Source: Lacrimispora amygdalina (GTDB lineage Bacteria > Bacillota > Clostridia > Lachnospirales > Lachnospiraceae). From it: a stretch of 34,973 bases of DNA. Both the position numbers and the translations under genes were made by a program. Position 1 is the first letter of the stretch, and each line of letters starts with the position of its first letter. Shown in pieces: positions 22,317 through 27,168 of this stretch. The notes under the pieces are model-generated. The model was not told where the DNA came from, made no database searches, and saw only the letters and a list, made by a program, of their open reading frames with translations. The stretch lies in assembly GCF_003432035.1 (NCBI RefSeq), contig NZ_QOHO01000087.1:1-34973 (forward strand). The letters are read 5' to 3'.

Positions 22317-23492
22317 ATGGATGGTAATACGAAACAACGGTGTTCCGACTGGTCTTCTCCGATGGAACTTGATATGTCCGTGTGTCCGGGGACAGTGATT
22401 CGTCCGGATATGCCTCTGGGTTCCGGTCCTGCAAAGAACTCACAAAACCCGTCAGCGCCGATTCCAATGACACAGCAGGATTTATCCAGATGTCCCTCTT
22501 ACTATGGATCCATGAAATGCCCGGATAATCCCCATTGTCCGGAGCCCGTAAAATGTCCGGAGAAGGCAGCAGCTTCTGCGCCAATGAAATGTCCGGAAAA
22601 ACCGGTATGCCAGATGCCGGTAAAATGCCCGCAGCAGGGCGTTTCTCCTGCGATGATGAGATGCCCGGAGATGCCTCCCAAGCCGATGAAATGTCCGGAC
22701 CAGGAAGTCTCTCCCGCAGTAATGAGATGTCCTAAGATGCCTCCCAAGCCGATGAAATGTCCGGACCAGGCAGTCTCCCCCGCAGTAATGAAATACCCGG
22801 AGATGCCCCCATGCCGAATGAAATGCCCGGATCAGGCAGTCTCTCCCGCAGTAATGAGATGTCCTGAAATGCCTCCCAAGCCGATGAAATGTCCGGACCA
22901 GGCAGTTTCCCCCGCAGTAATGAAATACCCGGAGATGCCCCCATGCCGAATGAAATGTCCGGACCAGGCAGTCTCTCCTGCAGTGATGAGATGTCCGGAG
23001 ATGCCCCCTAAGCCAATGAAATGTCCGGACCAGGCAGTCTCTCCTGCAGTAATGAGATGCCCGGATATGCCCCCCAAGCCAATGAAATGTCCGGACCAGG
23101 CAGTCTCTCCTGCAGTCATGAAATGCCCGGAAAAGCCCCTCAAGCCAATGAAATGTCCGGAAATGCCCACCAAGCCAATGAAATGTCCGGAACAGGCGGT
23201 CTCCCCTTCAGTCATGAGAAGTCCGGAAATGCCTCCATGCCCCAGGATGTATCCGGATATGCCCCCATGTTGTATAAAACCCAATATGCCGATGGGTATG
23301 GCTCCCGGCATGTATACTGATTCAAAGCCAGCTAAATGTTCTGGTGCTGAGAACATTGACCGGTATCCTATAGCCATGGCCTATGTTCCATGGCAGAGAT
23401 GGCAGGAACCTTATTCTGTAGACACAGCAATTGAAATGGGAACTATTTTCCCGGATTTATTTAAACCATTTTTGATGGGAGGGTGCAGGTAA
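22317..23492 (+). CDS. cotJA: CotJA-type spore coat protein fused to a Cys/Pro/Met repeat region
   Basis: A 391-residue protein. The last about 45 residues (MAYVPWQRWQEPYSVDTAIEM, in part, then GTIFPDLFKPF) match CotJA, a small spore-coat protein normally of about 80-100 residues. In front of it is about 300 residues of repeats with unit MKCPDQAVSPAVMRCPEMPP plus two residues (22 residues, 66 bases), about eight full copies plus degenerate flanks, alternating MRCPEMPPKP and MKYPEMPPCR versions. The many Cys residues could cross-link the coat by disulfides. ATG 22317 has AAAGGAG 11 nt upstream; ATG 22296 overlaps it. It is followed by cotJB (one-base overlap) and the split cotJC. The CotJ proteins form an inner-coat complex. 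Confidence 0.85.
   Translation: MDGNTKQRCSDWSSPMELDMSVCPGTVIRPDMPLGSGPAKNSQNPSAPIPMTQQDLSRCPSYYGSMKCPDNPHCPEPVKCPEKAAASAPMKCPEKPVCQMPVKCPQQGVSPAMMRCPEMPPKPMKCPDQEVSPAVMRCPKMPPKPMKCPDQAVSPAVMKYPEMPPCRMKCPDQAVSPAVMRCPEMPPKPMKCPDQAVSPAVMKYPEMPPCRMKCPDQAVSPAVMRCPEMPPKPMKCPDQAVSPAVMRCPDMPPKPMKCPDQAVSPAVMKCPEKPLKPMKCPEMPTKPMKCPEQAVSPSVMRSPEMPPCPRMYPDMPPCCIKPNMPMGMAPGMYTDSKPAKCSGAENIDRYPIAMAYVPWQRWQEPYSVDTAIEMGTIFPDLFKPFLMGGCR
22686..23245 (+). repeat. 66-bp in-frame tandem repeat array in cotJA
   Basis: About eight copies of a 66-bp unit beginning ATGAAATGTCCGGACCAG, highly similar at DNA level, with one shortened copy near 23146-23175. Neighbouring units alternate between two types, which indicates that a 132-bp pair was also duplicated. 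Copy number is expected to vary between strains by slippage or unequal crossover. Confidence 0.9.
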
Positions 23493-23761
23493 TGGGAAAT
23501 TGTAATGTTGTTGATTGCGATATGTTATTAATGCAGATATTTCAGGCCAGTTTCGCAATGGACGATGTAGTCCTGTATCTTGACACCCACCCGTGTGACC
23601 AGGATGCATTGAATTATTACTATTATGTAGTAAATATGCGGAATCAGGCTATGCAAACCTATGAGCAATATTGTGGTCCACTGATGGCAGATGGAGTTAT
23701 GGACGAAAACTACTGGACCTGGGTAAATGATCCATGGCCATGGGAAGGAGTGTGCGGCTAA
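23492..23761 (+). CDS. cotJB: Spore coat peptide CotJB
   Basis: An 89-residue protein matching CotJB over its length: LLMQIFQASFAMDDVVLYLD, then TWVNDPWPWEG at the C-terminus. ATG 23492 overlaps the cotJA stop by one base and has GGAGG 9 nt upstream. Its stop overlaps the cotJC ATG (TAATG), so the three genes are translated together. CotJB is a mother-cell coat protein needed with CotJA and CotJC. Confidence 0.9.
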   Translation: MGNCNVVDCDMLLMQIFQASFAMDDVVLYLDTHPCDQDALNYYYYVVNMRNQAMQTYEQYCGPLMADGVMDENYWTWVNDPWPWEGVCG

Positions 23762-23859
23762 TGTGGAGATATGAGAAAAGGTTGCAGTATCCTGTAAATA
23801 TTAAAACACCTAATCCTAAAATCGCTACCTTCATTATGAGCCAGTATGGCGGGCCTTAA
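23761..23859 (+). pseudogene. cotJC: cotJC 5' fragment (exon-like), split by intervening element
   Basis: The first 32 codons of CotJC, a manganese-catalase-like coat protein: MWRYEKRLQYPVNIKTPNPK, then IATFIMSQYGGP. The frame enters the intervening element at GGCGGGCC and ends at TAA 23857-23859, only four bases inside. The rest of the gene is at 26638-27168. Recombination between the two GGCGG cores would join codons GGP to DGEMGASMRYLSQRY without a frame change, giving about 202 residues, the normal CotJC length. The fragment alone cannot be functional. Confidence 0.9.
23847..23855 (+). other. attL core of the cotJC intervening element
   Basis: TGGCGGGCC. The same 9 bases apart from one purine change (TGGCGGACC) occur at 26646-26654 in the same direction at the other junction of cotJC. 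Both versions encode GGP in the cotJC frame, so crossover anywhere in the core preserves the protein. Confidence 0.75.
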
Positions 23860-25313
23860 GGCAAATGTATATAATAAATGAACTTCATTTCTCCGGACTT
23901 CTTATCATAAATAATCTTTTTTACCACACTGCGCAGTGCCCTTCCTTTGGCTTCACTGCTGACCGACTGATCTGTCAGTATATCGCAGGCGCTGCTTATT
24001 CTGCATAATGATGCGTCCCTGTTGTGAGAGTCCATAGCGTTTTTTGAAGACTCAATGGATTTTATCCTGATTTTCAACTCTGTTTCTGTCTTCTTCAGAC
24101 GTTCTTTTCCAGCGCGGTACTCTTCCAGATCATCAATTCCGTTTTCATAAGCTGCTTTTATTTTAATTTCCCTGGCACGGAGCTTTTCCAGTGCAGATTC
24201 TAACTGCTGCTTTTCCAGATATTGATCCAATACGGCCCGTTTGGTGTATTCACTGGTTCCGGCAGCAGCGGTAACGTGTTGTAAGGACTTAATAATGAGA
24301 GACTCCGCCTTTTTATCAGAGATACAGCAGGATTCCTTATGAAGCCCTTTTGTATAGCGCCAGCACTGAAAATAGCCGGACTGATGTCCGGTTTTGCTGC
24401 CGGCATGATATCCTAAGCTGGCTCCGCAATAGCCGCAGATTAAAAGTCCTGAAGCCCAATGCCTGCAGGCGGAGACTTCCCTGCGGTTTCTGGGTCTGTA
24501 TTCCTGTTTCAGCCGCTGCTGGTTTGCCTTAAATACAGAAGTGACTTCCTTCCTTATTTCATGAGAACCCTGAAACGAGATATTGTTCCAGGTAACGGTT
24601 CCATCATAGAATTTATTTTTTAATATCCGTTCTACCGCTCTTCTGTCAAATGAATTGCCACGTTTGGTACAATACCCATGATTGTTAGCCTCTTTTGCGA
24701 TAGAAGCCAGATCCATCCCATTGAAAAAAGACTGATGTATAAATACAACGGCTTCATATTCTTTTTCTTCTATAATAAAAGGTTTTCCTTCCCCTACTGC
24801 GCGGTATCCTAGACAGGGAGCTGCCTGATAGCCGTTTCTAAGCGCTTTTTCCGTCATTCCCCTTGTAACTTCCCCGGATAAGTTAATGGAATAGTATTCG
24901 TCAAACCATTCAATGATACTCTCGATAAGCCGGCCGAACATGCCTTCCATGATCGGTTCAGAAACACTTTTTATAGTAATACCGCATTTTTTTCGAAGAA
25001 CACTTTTGTAAAACATGCTTTCTTCCTGATTTCGGGCAAAACGGGAAAATTTCCATAAATAGAGGTATTGAAAAGGAGATGGATTTGTTTTTGCAATGGA
25101 AATCATCCGCTGAAACTCTTTCCGGTTATCAGCCCGGCGTCCGCTGATACCTTTTTCTTCAATAAAAATGTACTCGTCAGGGATTGGCACGCCATCAGCA
25201 CTTGCTGCATTTTTAATCTCCCGAAGCTGTGCAGCAGGAGAAAGCTCAGTCTGATCGTTTGTACTTACCCGGACATAAGCTGCACCAATGGGCTTTTTGG
25301 GATTTTTAATCAA
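23856..25313 (-). CDS. Large serine recombinase of the cotJC element
   Basis: A 485-residue serine recombinase. Resolvase domain: GAAYVRVSTNDQTELSPAAQ (part of residues 10-30; catalytic Ser about 17), EKGISGRRADNRKEFQRM, KFSRFARNQEES. A recombinase domain follows (EVTRGMTEKALRNGYQAAP; about 150-260), then a zinc ribbon with LICGYCGASLGYH ... CWRY ... CC (about 300-345) and a coiled-coil region (about 365-440). This is the SpoIVCA/large-serine-integrase architecture. TTG 25313 is the start (AAGGGA 6 nt upstream). The stop codon lies on the attL core edge, a typical placement. Large serine recombinases need a directionality factor for excision; candidates are the small genes at 25407 and 26423. 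Its role is inferred to be excision of the element to rebuild cotJC. Confidence 0.92.
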   Translation of the reverse strand: MIKNPKKPIGAAYVRVSTNDQTELSPAAQLREIKNAASADGVPIPDEYIFIEEKGISGRRADNRKEFQRMISIAKTNPSPFQYLYLWKFSRFARNQEESMFYKSVLRKKCGITIKSVSEPIMEGMFGRLIESIIEWFDEYYSINLSGEVTRGMTEKALRNGYQAAPCLGYRAVGEGKPFIIEEKEYEAVVFIHQSFFNGMDLASIAKEANNHGYCTKRGNSFDRRAVERILKNKFYDGTVTWNNISFQGSHEIRKEVTSVFKANQQRLKQEYRPRNRREVSACRHWASGLLICGYCGASLGYHAGSKTGHQSGYFQCWRYTKGLHKESCCISDKKAESLIIKSLQHVTAAAGTSEYTKRAVLDQYLEKQQLESALEKLRAREIKIKAAYENGIDDLEEYRAGKERLKKTETELKIRIKSIESSKNAMDSHNRDASLCRISSACDILTDQSVSSEAKGRALRSVVKKIIYDKKSGEMKFIYYIHLP

Positions 25314-25348
25314 TAAATTCCCTTCTTTCCGATGATTAAAAGAGAAGA

Positions 25349-25364
25349 TACCTGGAAACAGGTA
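25349..25364. promoter_or_regulatory. Inverted repeat between divergent genes of the element
   Basis: TACCTG-GAAA-CAGGTA: a perfect 6-bp inverted repeat with a GAAA centre, midway between the recombinase start (25313) and the small gene start (25407). It could be an operator controlling both or an RNA hairpin in either leader. Confidence 0.45.
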
Positions 25365-25376
25365 CAATCTGTGTCA

Positions 25377-25384
25377 CATACATT
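25377..25384 (+). promoter_or_regulatory. Candidate sigma-K-type -10 box for the 57-residue gene
   Basis: CATACATT (25377-25384) fits CATANNNT. An AC dinucleotide stands 17 bases upstream (25358-25359), the sigma-K arrangement. The ATG is 22 bases downstream. Short motifs like this occur by chance, so support is limited. Confidence 0.35.
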
Positions 25385-25406
25385 TTACAGGGAAGGAGAT
25401 GGAAAT

Positions 25407-25580
25407 ATGAGTAAAAACATTAGGATTGTAAATTACATAGATTTAAACGGAGAAATGATTTTATTTGATAGTCTGCCGGAGAAGAGGCAAAAGCAAGCCG
25501 GGGAAAAGCTCCGGGATCTGATGATGGAGAATGCAGGCTACGACTTAAAAAGGCCATCAGAAAAACACCGGCCATCTTAG
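25407..25580 (+). CDS. Small element gene, candidate directionality factor
   Basis: A 57-residue protein (MSKNIRIVNYIDLNGEMILFD...SLPEKRQKQAGEKL) with AAGGAG 9 nt before ATG 25407. It is charged, helical in its C-terminal half, and divergent from the recombinase gene, with a small inverted repeat between them. In size and position it resembles SprB, the 58-residue directionality factor of SPbeta, though I see no sequence signature for that. A sigma-K-like -10 motif precedes it. Candidate excision factor or regulator; unproven. Confidence 0.6.
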   Translation: MSKNIRIVNYIDLNGEMILFDSLPEKRQKQAGEKLRDLMMENAGYDLKRPSEKHRPS

Positions 25581-25620
25581 ATGACCGGGCCATTCGTTTA
25601 GACGGGGATGGGCAGGCAGT

Positions 25621-26289
25621 TCAGGAACTGGCAGCATCTTCCGTGCAGTCCTCGAAAGGAAAGAAAAATTCCGGAATACCTGAGGCATATGGAGCAATAT
25701 CGTACTGCTGGTAGTAGATGACCAGGCCGCAGGGCTTTAAGAAAAAGGCGTTCATATCAAAGTTTCCCCGGATCAGATGGGGATAGTCATCAAAGTAGGA
25801 GGCAGGAGCATCTTTCATGCGATTTGAGATATCATTTTCGATCACCTGAAAGATGGTATTATTTAATGCTTTTACGTCGGGAAAAAAATCTGTCAGATTC
25901 AGCTGATCCCCTGTCTGGAAGTCCCAGGTCTGTGACTGTCTCAGTGTATTTCCGTGGGCCCCGCCTAAATAAGAATATTGGTCGGTATAGAGGCTGGTGA
26001 TGCAATCCTCGTTATATGTGACGTCATAATCAGATAAGAATTCATAGCTGTGAAAGGGAAACTCATTATCTTTTGCATACATGGCATTTTCAACAGCCTG
26101 AGGGTATAAAACCTCACGACAGTATTTTTCAGCCTGCCGGGACTGTATCTCATAGAACTGGCTGATGGCGGGGGCAGTAACAGAACTGCAGGTTGATGTA
26201 AAAGAAGGATAATGAATGGTATAGGTAAGTACAGGAACGTCGTTATGAAGGAGGACATCTGCCTTTGTTTTTTTAGAGATTGTCTGCAT
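25621..26289 (-). CDS. DUF3298/DUF4163-type protein carried by the element
   Basis: A 222-residue protein with the two-part pattern of the RsiV/PdaC-type DUF4163-DUF3298 proteins. The N-terminal half is beta-rich (DVPVLTYTIHYPSF). The C-terminal half has SYLGGAHGNTLRQSQTWDF, TGDQLNLTDFF and YDIAPYASGIPEFFFPF. Related domains occur in anti-sigma factors and cell-wall deacetylases and may bind lysozyme or peptidoglycan. This copy has no signal peptide or membrane helix, so it is probably cytoplasmic or incomplete relative to those. ATG 26289 is preceded by GAGG. As cargo of a spore-gene element its function is unknown. Confidence 0.75.
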   Translation of the reverse strand: MQTISKKTKADVLLHNDVPVLTYTIHYPSFTSTCSSVTAPAISQFYEIQSRQAEKYCREVLYPQAVENAMYAKDNEFPFHSYEFLSDYDVTYNEDCITSLYTDQYSYLGGAHGNTLRQSQTWDFQTGDQLNLTDFFPDVKALNNTIFQVIENDISNRMKDAPASYFDDYPHLIRGNFDMNAFFLKPCGLVIYYQQYDIAPYASGIPEFFFPFEDCTEDAASS

Positions 26290-26376
26290 GAGAACCTCAG
26301 GAAAGAAAGCTTTTTATATTATATGAATACTCAGCTTGTTTATTGCCGGAAAATGCACGAATCAGGGATATAATAT

Positions 26377-26406
26377 GTATATTCGAAGCTGTTTATACCA
26401 TACTAT
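26377..26406 (+). promoter_or_regulatory. Candidate sigma-E/K mother-cell promoter inside the element
   Basis: GTATATT (26377-26383), 15 bases, then CATACTAT (26399-26406). The -10 box fits CATANNNT and the -35 box is close to the sigma-E KMATATT type. The ATG of the 53-residue gene is 17 bases further. A mother-cell promoter here would time that gene to sporulation. Confidence 0.5.
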
Positions 26407-26422
26407 CTTTGAGGTGAACGAT

Positions 26423-26584
26423 ATGAAAAACAATAAAAAAGATAATTACAGCTCCAGTGCAAAGGAAGAAAACAAAAAGCCTGAAACATTTCAGGATCAC
26501 TGGGAGACTGGAAAATTCTTAGGTCCCAATACTTTGAGACATGAAGAAAGCATTAAAGTGTATGAAGATAAGGAGGAGGAGTGA
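26423..26584 (+). CDS. Small charged element gene, second directionality-factor candidate
   Basis: A 53-residue, very hydrophilic protein (KKDNYSSSAKEENKKPETF, DHWETGKFLGPNTLRHEES). GAGGTG stands 6 nt before ATG 26423 and a mother-cell-type promoter lies just upstream. It is the last gene before the right core (60 bases away). It has no motif I recognise, and small soluble spore-associated protein is an alternative. Its timing-type promoter and location make it a candidate for the factor that turns the recombinase to excision. Confidence 0.55.
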   Translation: MKNNKKDNYSSSAKEENKKPETFQDHWETGKFLGPNTLRHEESIKVYEDKEEE

Positions 26585-26637
26585 TAAAACACTTCTCTTC
26601 CTTATTTTCATTATTGAGTGAATAAAAGAATCTGTTT

Positions 26638-27168
26638 TTGAAATTTGGCGGACCAGATGGTGAAATGGGCGCTTCCATGCGTTATCTTTCCCAGCGTTAT
26701 GCTATGCCATATAAGGAGGGAAAGGCGATATTAACTGACATTGGAACGGAAGAACTGGCGCATCTTGAAATCGTAGCAACCATTGTTCATCAGCTGACCA
26801 GAAATTTAACTCCGGAGCAGGTTGTAGAATCAGGGTTTGGTCCTTATTATATTGACCATACCACAGGTATATGGCCACAGGCAGCGGGTGGAATTCCTTT
26901 TAATGCATGCGAATTCCAGTCTAAAGGCGACCCAATCACCGACTTGGTAGAGGATATGGCAGCAGAACAAAAAGCCAGGAGTACTTACGACAACATTTTG
27001 CGTGTTATCACAGACCCCGATATCTGTGATCCCATCCGGTTCTTACGGATGCGTGAAGTAGTCCATTTCCAGAGATTCGGTGAAGCTCTTAGAATCACTC
27101 AGGATAATCTGGACAGCAAAAACTTTTATGCATTTAATCCCAGCTTTGATGTCAAAACAAAATGTTAA
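26638..27168 (+). pseudogene. cotJC: cotJC 3' fragment, manganese-catalase-like coat protein
   Basis: Codons from the GGP core onward encode the rest of CotJC: DGEMGASMRYLSQRYAMPYK, DIGTEELAHLEIVATIVHQL with the ExxH metal-binding helix, DMAAEQKARSTYDNILR, and FLRMREVVHFQRFGEAL with the second ExxH. This is the manganese-catalase fold of spore coats. The frame upstream (LKF) comes from element sequence and there is no ribosome site, so this part is not expected to be translated before excision. It is complete to its C-terminus and followed by a terminator. Joined to the 5' fragment it is a normal, intact CotJC. Confidence 0.92.
26646..26654 (+). other. attR core of the cotJC intervening element
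   Basis: TGGCGGACC, the right-hand copy of the 9-bp core, in the same orientation as 23847-23855. Bases flanking the two cores diverge on the element side, and the cotJC reading frame begins to match the family from here on. Confidence 0.75.

Follow-up and report, generated by a model that had tools for sequence, protein, structure and literature searches.

The spore-coat gene cotJC of Lacrimispora amygdalina is interrupted after codon 32 by an insert of 2,799 bp, which is very probably a stripped prophage, kept mainly by vertical descent and removed by its own recombinase so that cotJC is rebuilt in sporulating cells. The split gene spans positions 23761-27168 of the window, that is, the whole stretch of 34,973 nucleotides of contig NZ_QOHO01000087.1 analyzed here; the genome to which it belongs is labelled G000. 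Comparison of sequences establishes the split gene, a short core at both junctions, a dyad in the attachment site predicted for the circular form (attP), a recombinase under constraint, an open frame after modelled excision, conservation of the arrangement in the genus, joined alleles in relatives, an attP junction and a full prophage at the same site. On these features the element belongs to the known class of sporulation gene-intervening (skin-type) elements, with cotJC as its target.

The interrupted gene and its attachment sites

As in skin-type elements, it is the coding sequence of a spore gene that is interrupted, at codon 32/33 of cotJC in a cotJA-cotJB-cotJC operon (Table 1), and a short core is found at both junctions, with the frame restored on joining; the CotJ proteins have an established role in the spore coat. 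Codons 1-32 occupy positions 23761-23856 and are directly followed by TAA (23857-23859), so that the left piece terminates TAT GGC GGG CCT TAA, and reading restarts 2,799 bp later at GGC GGA CCA GAT GGT. The two core copies, GGCGGGCC and GGCGGACC, are in direct orientation at this same distance, differ in one wobble base and have GGNGGNCC in common. Modelled core-to-core removal gives a 202-codon reading of a Mn-catalase-type CotJC (...SQYGGPDGEMGASMRYLSQRYA..., with SQYGGPDGEMGASMRY as the residues across the joint), and the Pfam Mn_catalase match (PF05067) in the 3' piece covers model positions 29-197. The preliminary description of this DNA, which was made from the letters without database searches, had the cotJC coordinates, the core with its single difference between copies and the length of the insert right, and its prediction of an in-frame join of about 202 residues and of a recombinase gene ending at the left core is borne out, the recombinase stop codon (TTA on the plus strand at 23856-23858) standing immediately after that core.

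Table 1. Features of the cotJ locus and of the element that interrupts cotJC
Feature	Position	Strand	Remarks
cotJA-like gene, 398 aa	22296..23492	+	repeat-rich, C-terminal CotJA domain; PF11007 4.4e-17
cotJB	23492..23761	+	PF12652 7.7e-30
cotJC 5' piece	23761..23859	+	codons 1-32 and immediate stop
attL core GGCGGGCC	23848..23855	+	proposed crossover dinucleotide GG at 23851-23852
Large serine recombinase	23856..25313	-	Resolvase, Recombinase and Zn-ribbon domains (Pfam); probable TTG start
34-bp block GAAACAGGTACAATCTGTGTCACATACATTTTAC	25355..25388	+	upstream of the 57-aa ORF; strongly conserved in 14 genus genomes
57-aa ORF	25407..25580	+	divergent from recombinase; candidate recombination directionality factor
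PdaC/DUF3298 protein (RsiV-like)	25621..26289	-	cargo; PF13739 1.8e-19, PF11738 1.7e-13
53-aa ORF	26423..26584	+	in most, not all, element copies
cotJC 3' piece	26638..27168	+	Mn-catalase domain, PF05067 3.4e-38; CotJC codons resume within core
attR core GGCGGACC	26647..26654	+	

Four open reading frames (ORFs) are held by the insert, encoding the recombinase, a divergent 57-aa protein, a PdaC/DUF3298 protein and a 53-aa protein, and none of them matches a phage structural gene (head, tail, packaging or lysis) in Pfam or PHROG. The recombinase has the features of a large serine recombinase, namely the three domains and attP dyad arms around a non-palindromic dinucleotide. Its start is probably the TTG at 25313, giving 485 aa, because the preceding 18 codons of the longest ORF resemble a leader more than a coding region. 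The protein matches the integrase family phrog_95, and the solved structures closest to its profile are the SPbeta integrase YokA (4.9e-15) and the A118 integrase; we take YokA to be SprA, the enzyme that rebuilds spsM. Reading frames of the related recombinases are uninterrupted, and the ORFs checked contain the catalytic Ser/Arg motifs, which do not vary among the 13 aligned. The ratio of nonsynonymous to synonymous substitution rates (dN/dS, omega) of the recombinase is 0.07-0.11 in seven of eight genome pairs, the eighth pair being identical, indicating an intact enzyme under purifying selection, and the 3' piece of cotJC is also constrained (omega 0-0.26, eight pairs). Distances between the recombinases correlate with those between copies of a nearby host oxidoreductase gene (Mantel rho 0.61, a value reached in 7 of 2000 permutations; 11 genomes, omitting G022 as a near-copy of G023, and G003 and G018, whose host gene lies outside the stretch analyzed), and descent of the element is therefore mainly vertical.

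Three lines of evidence agree on GG at core positions 4-5 as the proposed crossover dinucleotide. Within one genome, the attL and attR cores differ only at positions 3, 6 and 8, and never at the GG or at positions 1, 2 and 7. Joining the element-side arms as in the circle produces an attP that is an inverted repeat centred exactly between core positions 4 and 5, with 13.07 of 22 positions paired at the core centre versus 5.61 ± 0.82 elsewhere (maximum 8.00; mean of 14 genomes, several of them closely related, a set that leaves out the contig-cut G001 and G015, and G005). Lastly, Clostridium sp. Marseille-P2415 (G018, locus L091) carries three recombinase copies in tandem, and the inner junction between two of them consists of attR-left joined to attL-right, that is, the predicted attP, and places the crossover to the right of core position 3; because the record has an N between two copies, the outer duplication is less secure than this junction. 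Modelled excision leads to an open CotJC frame of 202-203 aa in 12 of the 14 genomes, and in the other two (G014 and G003) the joined frame halts at codon 72 owing to a second insert.

According to the mechanism that we propose, the recombinase would cut both cores at the central GG of GGNGGNCC, which makes up bases 1 and 2 of the second of the two Gly codons in Tyr-Gly-Gly-Pro, and would then swap the ends, yielding a circle bearing attP and a chromosome bearing in-frame cotJC. The 57-aa protein, presumably expressed from a mother-cell (sigma-E type) promoter, would be the directionality factor permitting excision, which would be limited to the terminal mother cell, the germline retaining the insert. 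From the sequences we infer excision itself, its timing and cell, the directionality role of the 57-aa protein, and the making and use of the joined CotJC.

The 57-aa ORF is kept across the genus. Neither this nor the 53-aa ORF has a family match in Pfam, NCBIfam or PHROG, and a profile search with the former recovered 57 small proteins, none with a functional name. The block upstream of it, GAAACARGTACAATCYRTGTCACATACATTTTAC, is strongly conserved across the 14 genus genomes compared and includes CATACATT, which resembles a sigma-E type -10; AAACARGT in the same block presumably fits the SpoIIID core. Its position, size and upstream block, together with the analogy to CD1234 of the Clostridioides difficile sigK element skinCd, make the 57-aa protein a candidate recombination directionality factor. 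In skinCd the recombinase CD1231 is produced constitutively, and excision is made possible by the 72-aa CD1234, which is controlled by sigma-E and SpoIIID (PMC5025042).

Occurrence in the genus and family

Comparison of 25 genus genomes, the window's own included, revealed the element at the same cotJC codon (site 1) in 17. In 15 of the 25, the two cotJC pieces flank an intact related recombinase on a single contig (the window, G003, G005, G007, G008, G010, G011, G012, G014, G017, G018, G021, G022, G023 and G024), and in G001 and G015 the element is present and cut by a contig end. The gene is joined at site 1 in 5/25 (G002, G004, G009, G019 and G020) and ambiguous in G006, and G013 and G016 (the latter 82% complete) possess a CotJC paralogue only, without copy 1. 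A separate count of recombinase matches also arrives at 17 by a different set, which includes G020 and misses the cut G015. Where no such recombinase occurs at site 1, cotJC is joined or the copy is missing, except for the contig-cut G001 and G015, whose recombinase is on a different contig or truncated by the contig end, and the ambiguous G006. The uninterrupted gene that the preliminary description had proposed to look for in relatives thus exists, and the arrangement that it had named as contrary to its claim, the same two fragments with no recombinase, was not seen among the genus genomes. Neither chance nor an assembly artefact was accepted as the cause of the break, as it is found at the same codon in many genomes assembled independently of one another.

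The inserts at site 1 that lie on single stretches measure 2.1 to 9.0 kb (28 entries, counting duplicate records and the tandem array). Three genomes (G003, G005 and G014) carry the element at site 1 plus a second insert at a site 2, and G004 has an insert at site 2 only. The site-2 insert of G003 is a prophage of about 41 kb with capsid, head, tail, tape measure, endolysin and integrase genes (L057:3829 to L058:18871, read on both sides of its middle 6 kb), and the site-2 inserts of G004 and G005, of about 6 kb, have an integrase of the same type. Two of the genomes with a joined gene hold remains of the element next to it: in G002 (L043) the intact cotJC is followed by recombinase-less element genes ending in a truncated second cotJC piece, and in G009 (L042) by at least part of such genes. 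These leftovers look like the fossil of a former insert. Two contigs of G006 (C127 and C89; L041, L040) are of a different kind, the end of one reading joined cotJC with an extra C and the other beginning exactly at the core; they could be a mixed or mis-assembled excision product.

At the level of the family, 120 Lachnospiraceae genomes were surveyed, one per genus and at least 90% complete. CotJC was matched in 75 of them, and it is in pieces in at least 27 of these 75, at about four places, a count from which G052 (frameshift-like), G062, G070, G102 and G136 were left out. The first piece ends at codon 31-47 in 12 genomes and at codon 64-89 in 11; later breaks occur in G033, G051 and G105 (about codon 137) and in G046 (about 178), and two breaks are present in G072, G118, G126 and G140. 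The DNA between the pieces was read in G049 and G035, and the assignments for the other genera come from piece patterns, many on separate contigs. By these patterns cotJC is interrupted repeatedly and at several sites across the family and is not an isolated case, which widens the claim of the preliminary description from one interrupted gene to one that is hit at about four places.

Related recombinases were also sought in 84,980 species genomes, and the best 79 of at least 535 confirmed relatives were classified, a sample in which some loci repeat the genus genomes and which is not a census. The recombinase 3' end abuts cotJC site 1 in 47 of these 79 loci (24 antisense at the left end and 23 sense at the right end), and a further four are within or near a split cotJC (51 for cotJC in total). 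A SpoIID-like/peptidoglycan-binding gene was observed as a second recurrent target, with 18 loci (L142:7502-8410, L134:1432-1947 and 16 more among L091-L169); its SpoIID-like domain match is just at the cut-off, and its spore role is putative. Best NCBIfam matches point to spoVD in two loci (L152 and L160), cwlD in one (L127) and pdaB in one (L136), all below whole-protein cut-offs, as expected of pieces, and six target genes were not assigned. Overall, 73 of the best 79 loci abut or lie in genes read as spore genes. On a quick recombinase tree of 93 rows the target labels fall into clusters, with 27 changes needed versus 53.5 when shuffled (0 of 200 as low).

Prophages at the same site and sister elements

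A prophage of 36 kb occupies the same core (GGGGGCCC), with similar arms, in G049, which belongs to another Lachnospiraceae genus. Its PHROG matches include terminase, portal, head protease and capsid, the head and packaging genes that distinguish a prophage and that the window element lacks, and its recombinase is 59.9% identical to that of the window. Also at site 1, G035 bears a 40-kb prophage (portal, capsid, tape measure) with a recombinase 39.8% identical, the left junction of which comes from the piece pattern only. Of 80 IMG/VR loci with related recombinases, near-copies included, 16 contain part of cotJC and 12 part of the SpoIID/peptidoglycan-binding gene. Since the site is shared with a full prophage whose recombinase is 60% identical, the window element is most readily understood as a prophage that has been pared down to its switch; the preliminary description's "domesticated or selfish element" is hereby recast as a stripped prophage.

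The recombinases of L126 and L133 are closely related (end branches of 0.058 and 0.032 on the tree) and flank cotJC site 1 on opposite sides: their recombinase-side arms are alike, one being joined to the N piece and the other to the C piece; insert orientation therefore seems to have been recently flipped. Four unannotated human-fecal phage records (H22-H25) contain cotJC pieces that stop at codon 68-73 or begin at 132, close to the second and third break points of the genomes.

Three genes of the window's own genome appear to be split in this way, namely sigK, cotJC and feoB. On contig C95 (L178:6304-10542) an element of about 2.4 kb interrupts the G-domain part of feoB, after ...GNPNVGKSTVFNQLTGMNQHT; it encodes a further large serine recombinase and, behind a block like that of the cotJC element, a small divergent ORF. 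These two elements have closely similar promoter-like blocks before the small ORF divergent from the recombinase. Relatives of the feoB-element recombinase (E <= 1e-60) occur in 13 of the 25 genus genomes, with broken pieces in G015 and G024, and the split feoB motif lies beside the recombinase in 12 of the 13, G001 being at a contig edge. The strict form of the block was found in feoB elements of the own genome only. In a looser comparison a similar block is present at the equivalent place in seven of the 13 feoB elements (17-24 of 27 letters), several reading GGACAA-N9-CATACAAT; in G002 it is elsewhere, and five have none better than 14 of 27 letters. The related blocks support a control shared by the cotJC and feoB elements, sporulation control not being proved thereby.

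On contig C140 of the own genome (L170:3237-8803) sigK is apparently split by an insert of about 7 kb, which carries genes for the two NiFe-hydrogenase subunits (small and large), for a maturation protease and a cytochrome-b5-like protein, and for a recombinase; the sigK insert of G011 is much smaller. Paired sigK pieces are found in most genus genomes, among the matches listed. The model TIGR02846 stayed below its cut-off in 25/25 genus genomes, so that the split of sigK is read from paired matches below it (profile positions about 24-115 and 109-226).

Alternative explanations and relation to known systems

Several observations weigh against programmed removal of a stripped prophage from cotJC. 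In G020 the recombinase, 45% identical, sits away from cotJC, and its target gene was not recognised. A CotJC paralogue (67-70% identity, open frame 207-240 aa) occurs in 24 of the 25 genus genomes, and therefore rebuilding this cotJC copy may matter little; the interrupted copy may be partly redundant. The joined-looking contig of G006 was set aside as direct excision evidence, given the extra C that shifts the frame, the error-rich contig end and an assembly with no recombinase at E <= 1e-60. The modelled attB has no clear dyad (7.71 of 22 at the centre versus 5.62 ± 1.55, maximum 9.07 off centre). Values of dN/dS for the 57-aa ORF are variable (0-0.82, one pair saturated), with weak constraint in some pairs (omega 0.46 and 0.82). 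An element with the related block interrupts feoB, which to our knowledge is not a recognised spore-specific gene. A looser scan for CATA[CT]ANT matched 22 of 84 recombinase upstream regions versus 9% of random windows; of these 22, nine come from Lacrimispora and the remaining 13 are dispersed, mostly in looser forms, and a family-wide sigma-E promoter is therefore not claimed. The extended block pattern gave two matches in the own genome versus three for its reversed control, and the block is therefore not shown to be a general sigma-E promoter.

The insert could also be an integrated mobile element or the remnant of a prophage, excising infrequently and at any time, with no developmental programme and with cotJC as its docking site, which we consider unlikely. 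The full prophages with related recombinases at the same site would fit such an origin, as would the IMG/VR loci with a cotJC piece, the differing insert orientation in the close relatives L126 and L133, the tandem array and the related block of the feoB element. The genus inserts, however, lack phage structural genes, yet their recombinase is intact and constrained and its distances track the host gene, and docking does not predict that 73 of the best 79 loci should be at genes read as spore genes, unless such sites are simply tolerated. Very unlikely is a dead locus, in which cotJC copy 1 would be a pseudogene with a relic insert, tolerated given the intact paralogue. Such decay would agree with the open-frame paralogue and with G013 and G016, which have no copy 1, but not with the constraint on the C-part, the recombinase and the PdaC/DUF3298 protein (omega 0-0.17, eight pairs), nor with a joined frame that is free of stops in all modelled genomes save the two with a second insert. 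It is most improbable that excision is not needed at all and that the C-part is translated alone, from TTG 26638, as a shortened coat catalase: the window does have an open frame with this start, and the Mn_catalase match falls in the C-part, but an in-frame TAA directly precedes the core in 5 of 14 genomes (G007, G008, G010, G017 and G018), where no own start of the C-part is therefore possible, no sequence resembling a ribosome-binding site was seen before TTG 26638, and the constrained recombinase and kept attP would be left unexplained.

Beyond the single element, we lean slightly towards a wider reading, in which Lachnospiraceae and relatives would harbor diversified phage-derived recombinase mini-elements, several per genome, acting as DNA-level introns that are spliced from the mother-cell chromosome at each sporulation, with cotJC, the SpoIID/peptidoglycan-binding gene, spoVD, cwlD, pdaB and sigK as spore-gene targets. 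If the proposed removal from cotJC holds, the element would be a very small unit of programmed rearrangement, in which 2.8 kb contain a single recombinase and a single candidate directionality factor. Public genomes would then offer an evolutionary series of same-site full prophage, larger reduced forms, 2-3 kb mini-elements, joined alleles and tandem array, making the question of how a prophage becomes a developmental switch directly testable. In these bacteria cotJC, spoVD, cwlD, feoB and similar genes can appear disrupted and may nevertheless be rebuilt in the cells that use them.

Comparison with known systems places the element close to the sigK skin elements of Bacillus subtilis and C. 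difficile (skinCd), with which it shares an internal large serine recombinase, direct core repeats and a spore gene that is joined in frame, here on modelled excision; skinCd has a 72-aa directionality factor under sigma-E/SpoIIID (PMC5025042), of which the 57-aa candidate may be the counterpart. In contrast to skinCd, the target is cotJC, there are four ORFs versus 19 genes (PMC5025042), and excision from cotJC is a prediction. SPbeta in spsM rebuilds a spore-envelope gene in the mother cell (PMC4191935), and its integrase YokA is among the solved structures closest to the recombinase profile of the window element; a full prophage likewise sits in cotJC site 1 of a relative. Unlike SPbeta, the window element has no phage structural genes, and its 57-aa ORF matches no Pfam, NCBIfam or PHROG family. 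Like gin in gerE of Bacillus cereus, it combines the absence of phage genes with a serine recombinase and a short core (9 bp in gin), but gin has 28.6 kb, 31 genes and three serine recombinases, versus 2.8 kb and one recombinase here (PMC5595907). The prophage-like inserts vfbin (spoVFB), vrin (spoVR) and yin (yabG) also lie in spore genes (PMC4191935, PMC10747680), whereas cotJC is interrupted at about four places and can contain two inserts at once.

No report of an interrupted and rebuilt cotJC was recognised in the open-access literature searched, bioRxiv and most subscription journals being outside it. The nearest mention found is C. difficile phi027, whose attR adjoins the CotJC-like gene CDR20291_1465 / cotG; in the accessible portions of these two papers the homologue is described as adjacent, and not as split and rebuilt (PMC11222575, PMC12122855).

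As for the remaining genes of the insert, the RsiV model match of the PdaC/DUF3298 protein stays below its cut-off and the protein has no PHROG match, and the 53-aa ORF shows a dN/dS of 0-0.11 in five pairs, one of them identical.

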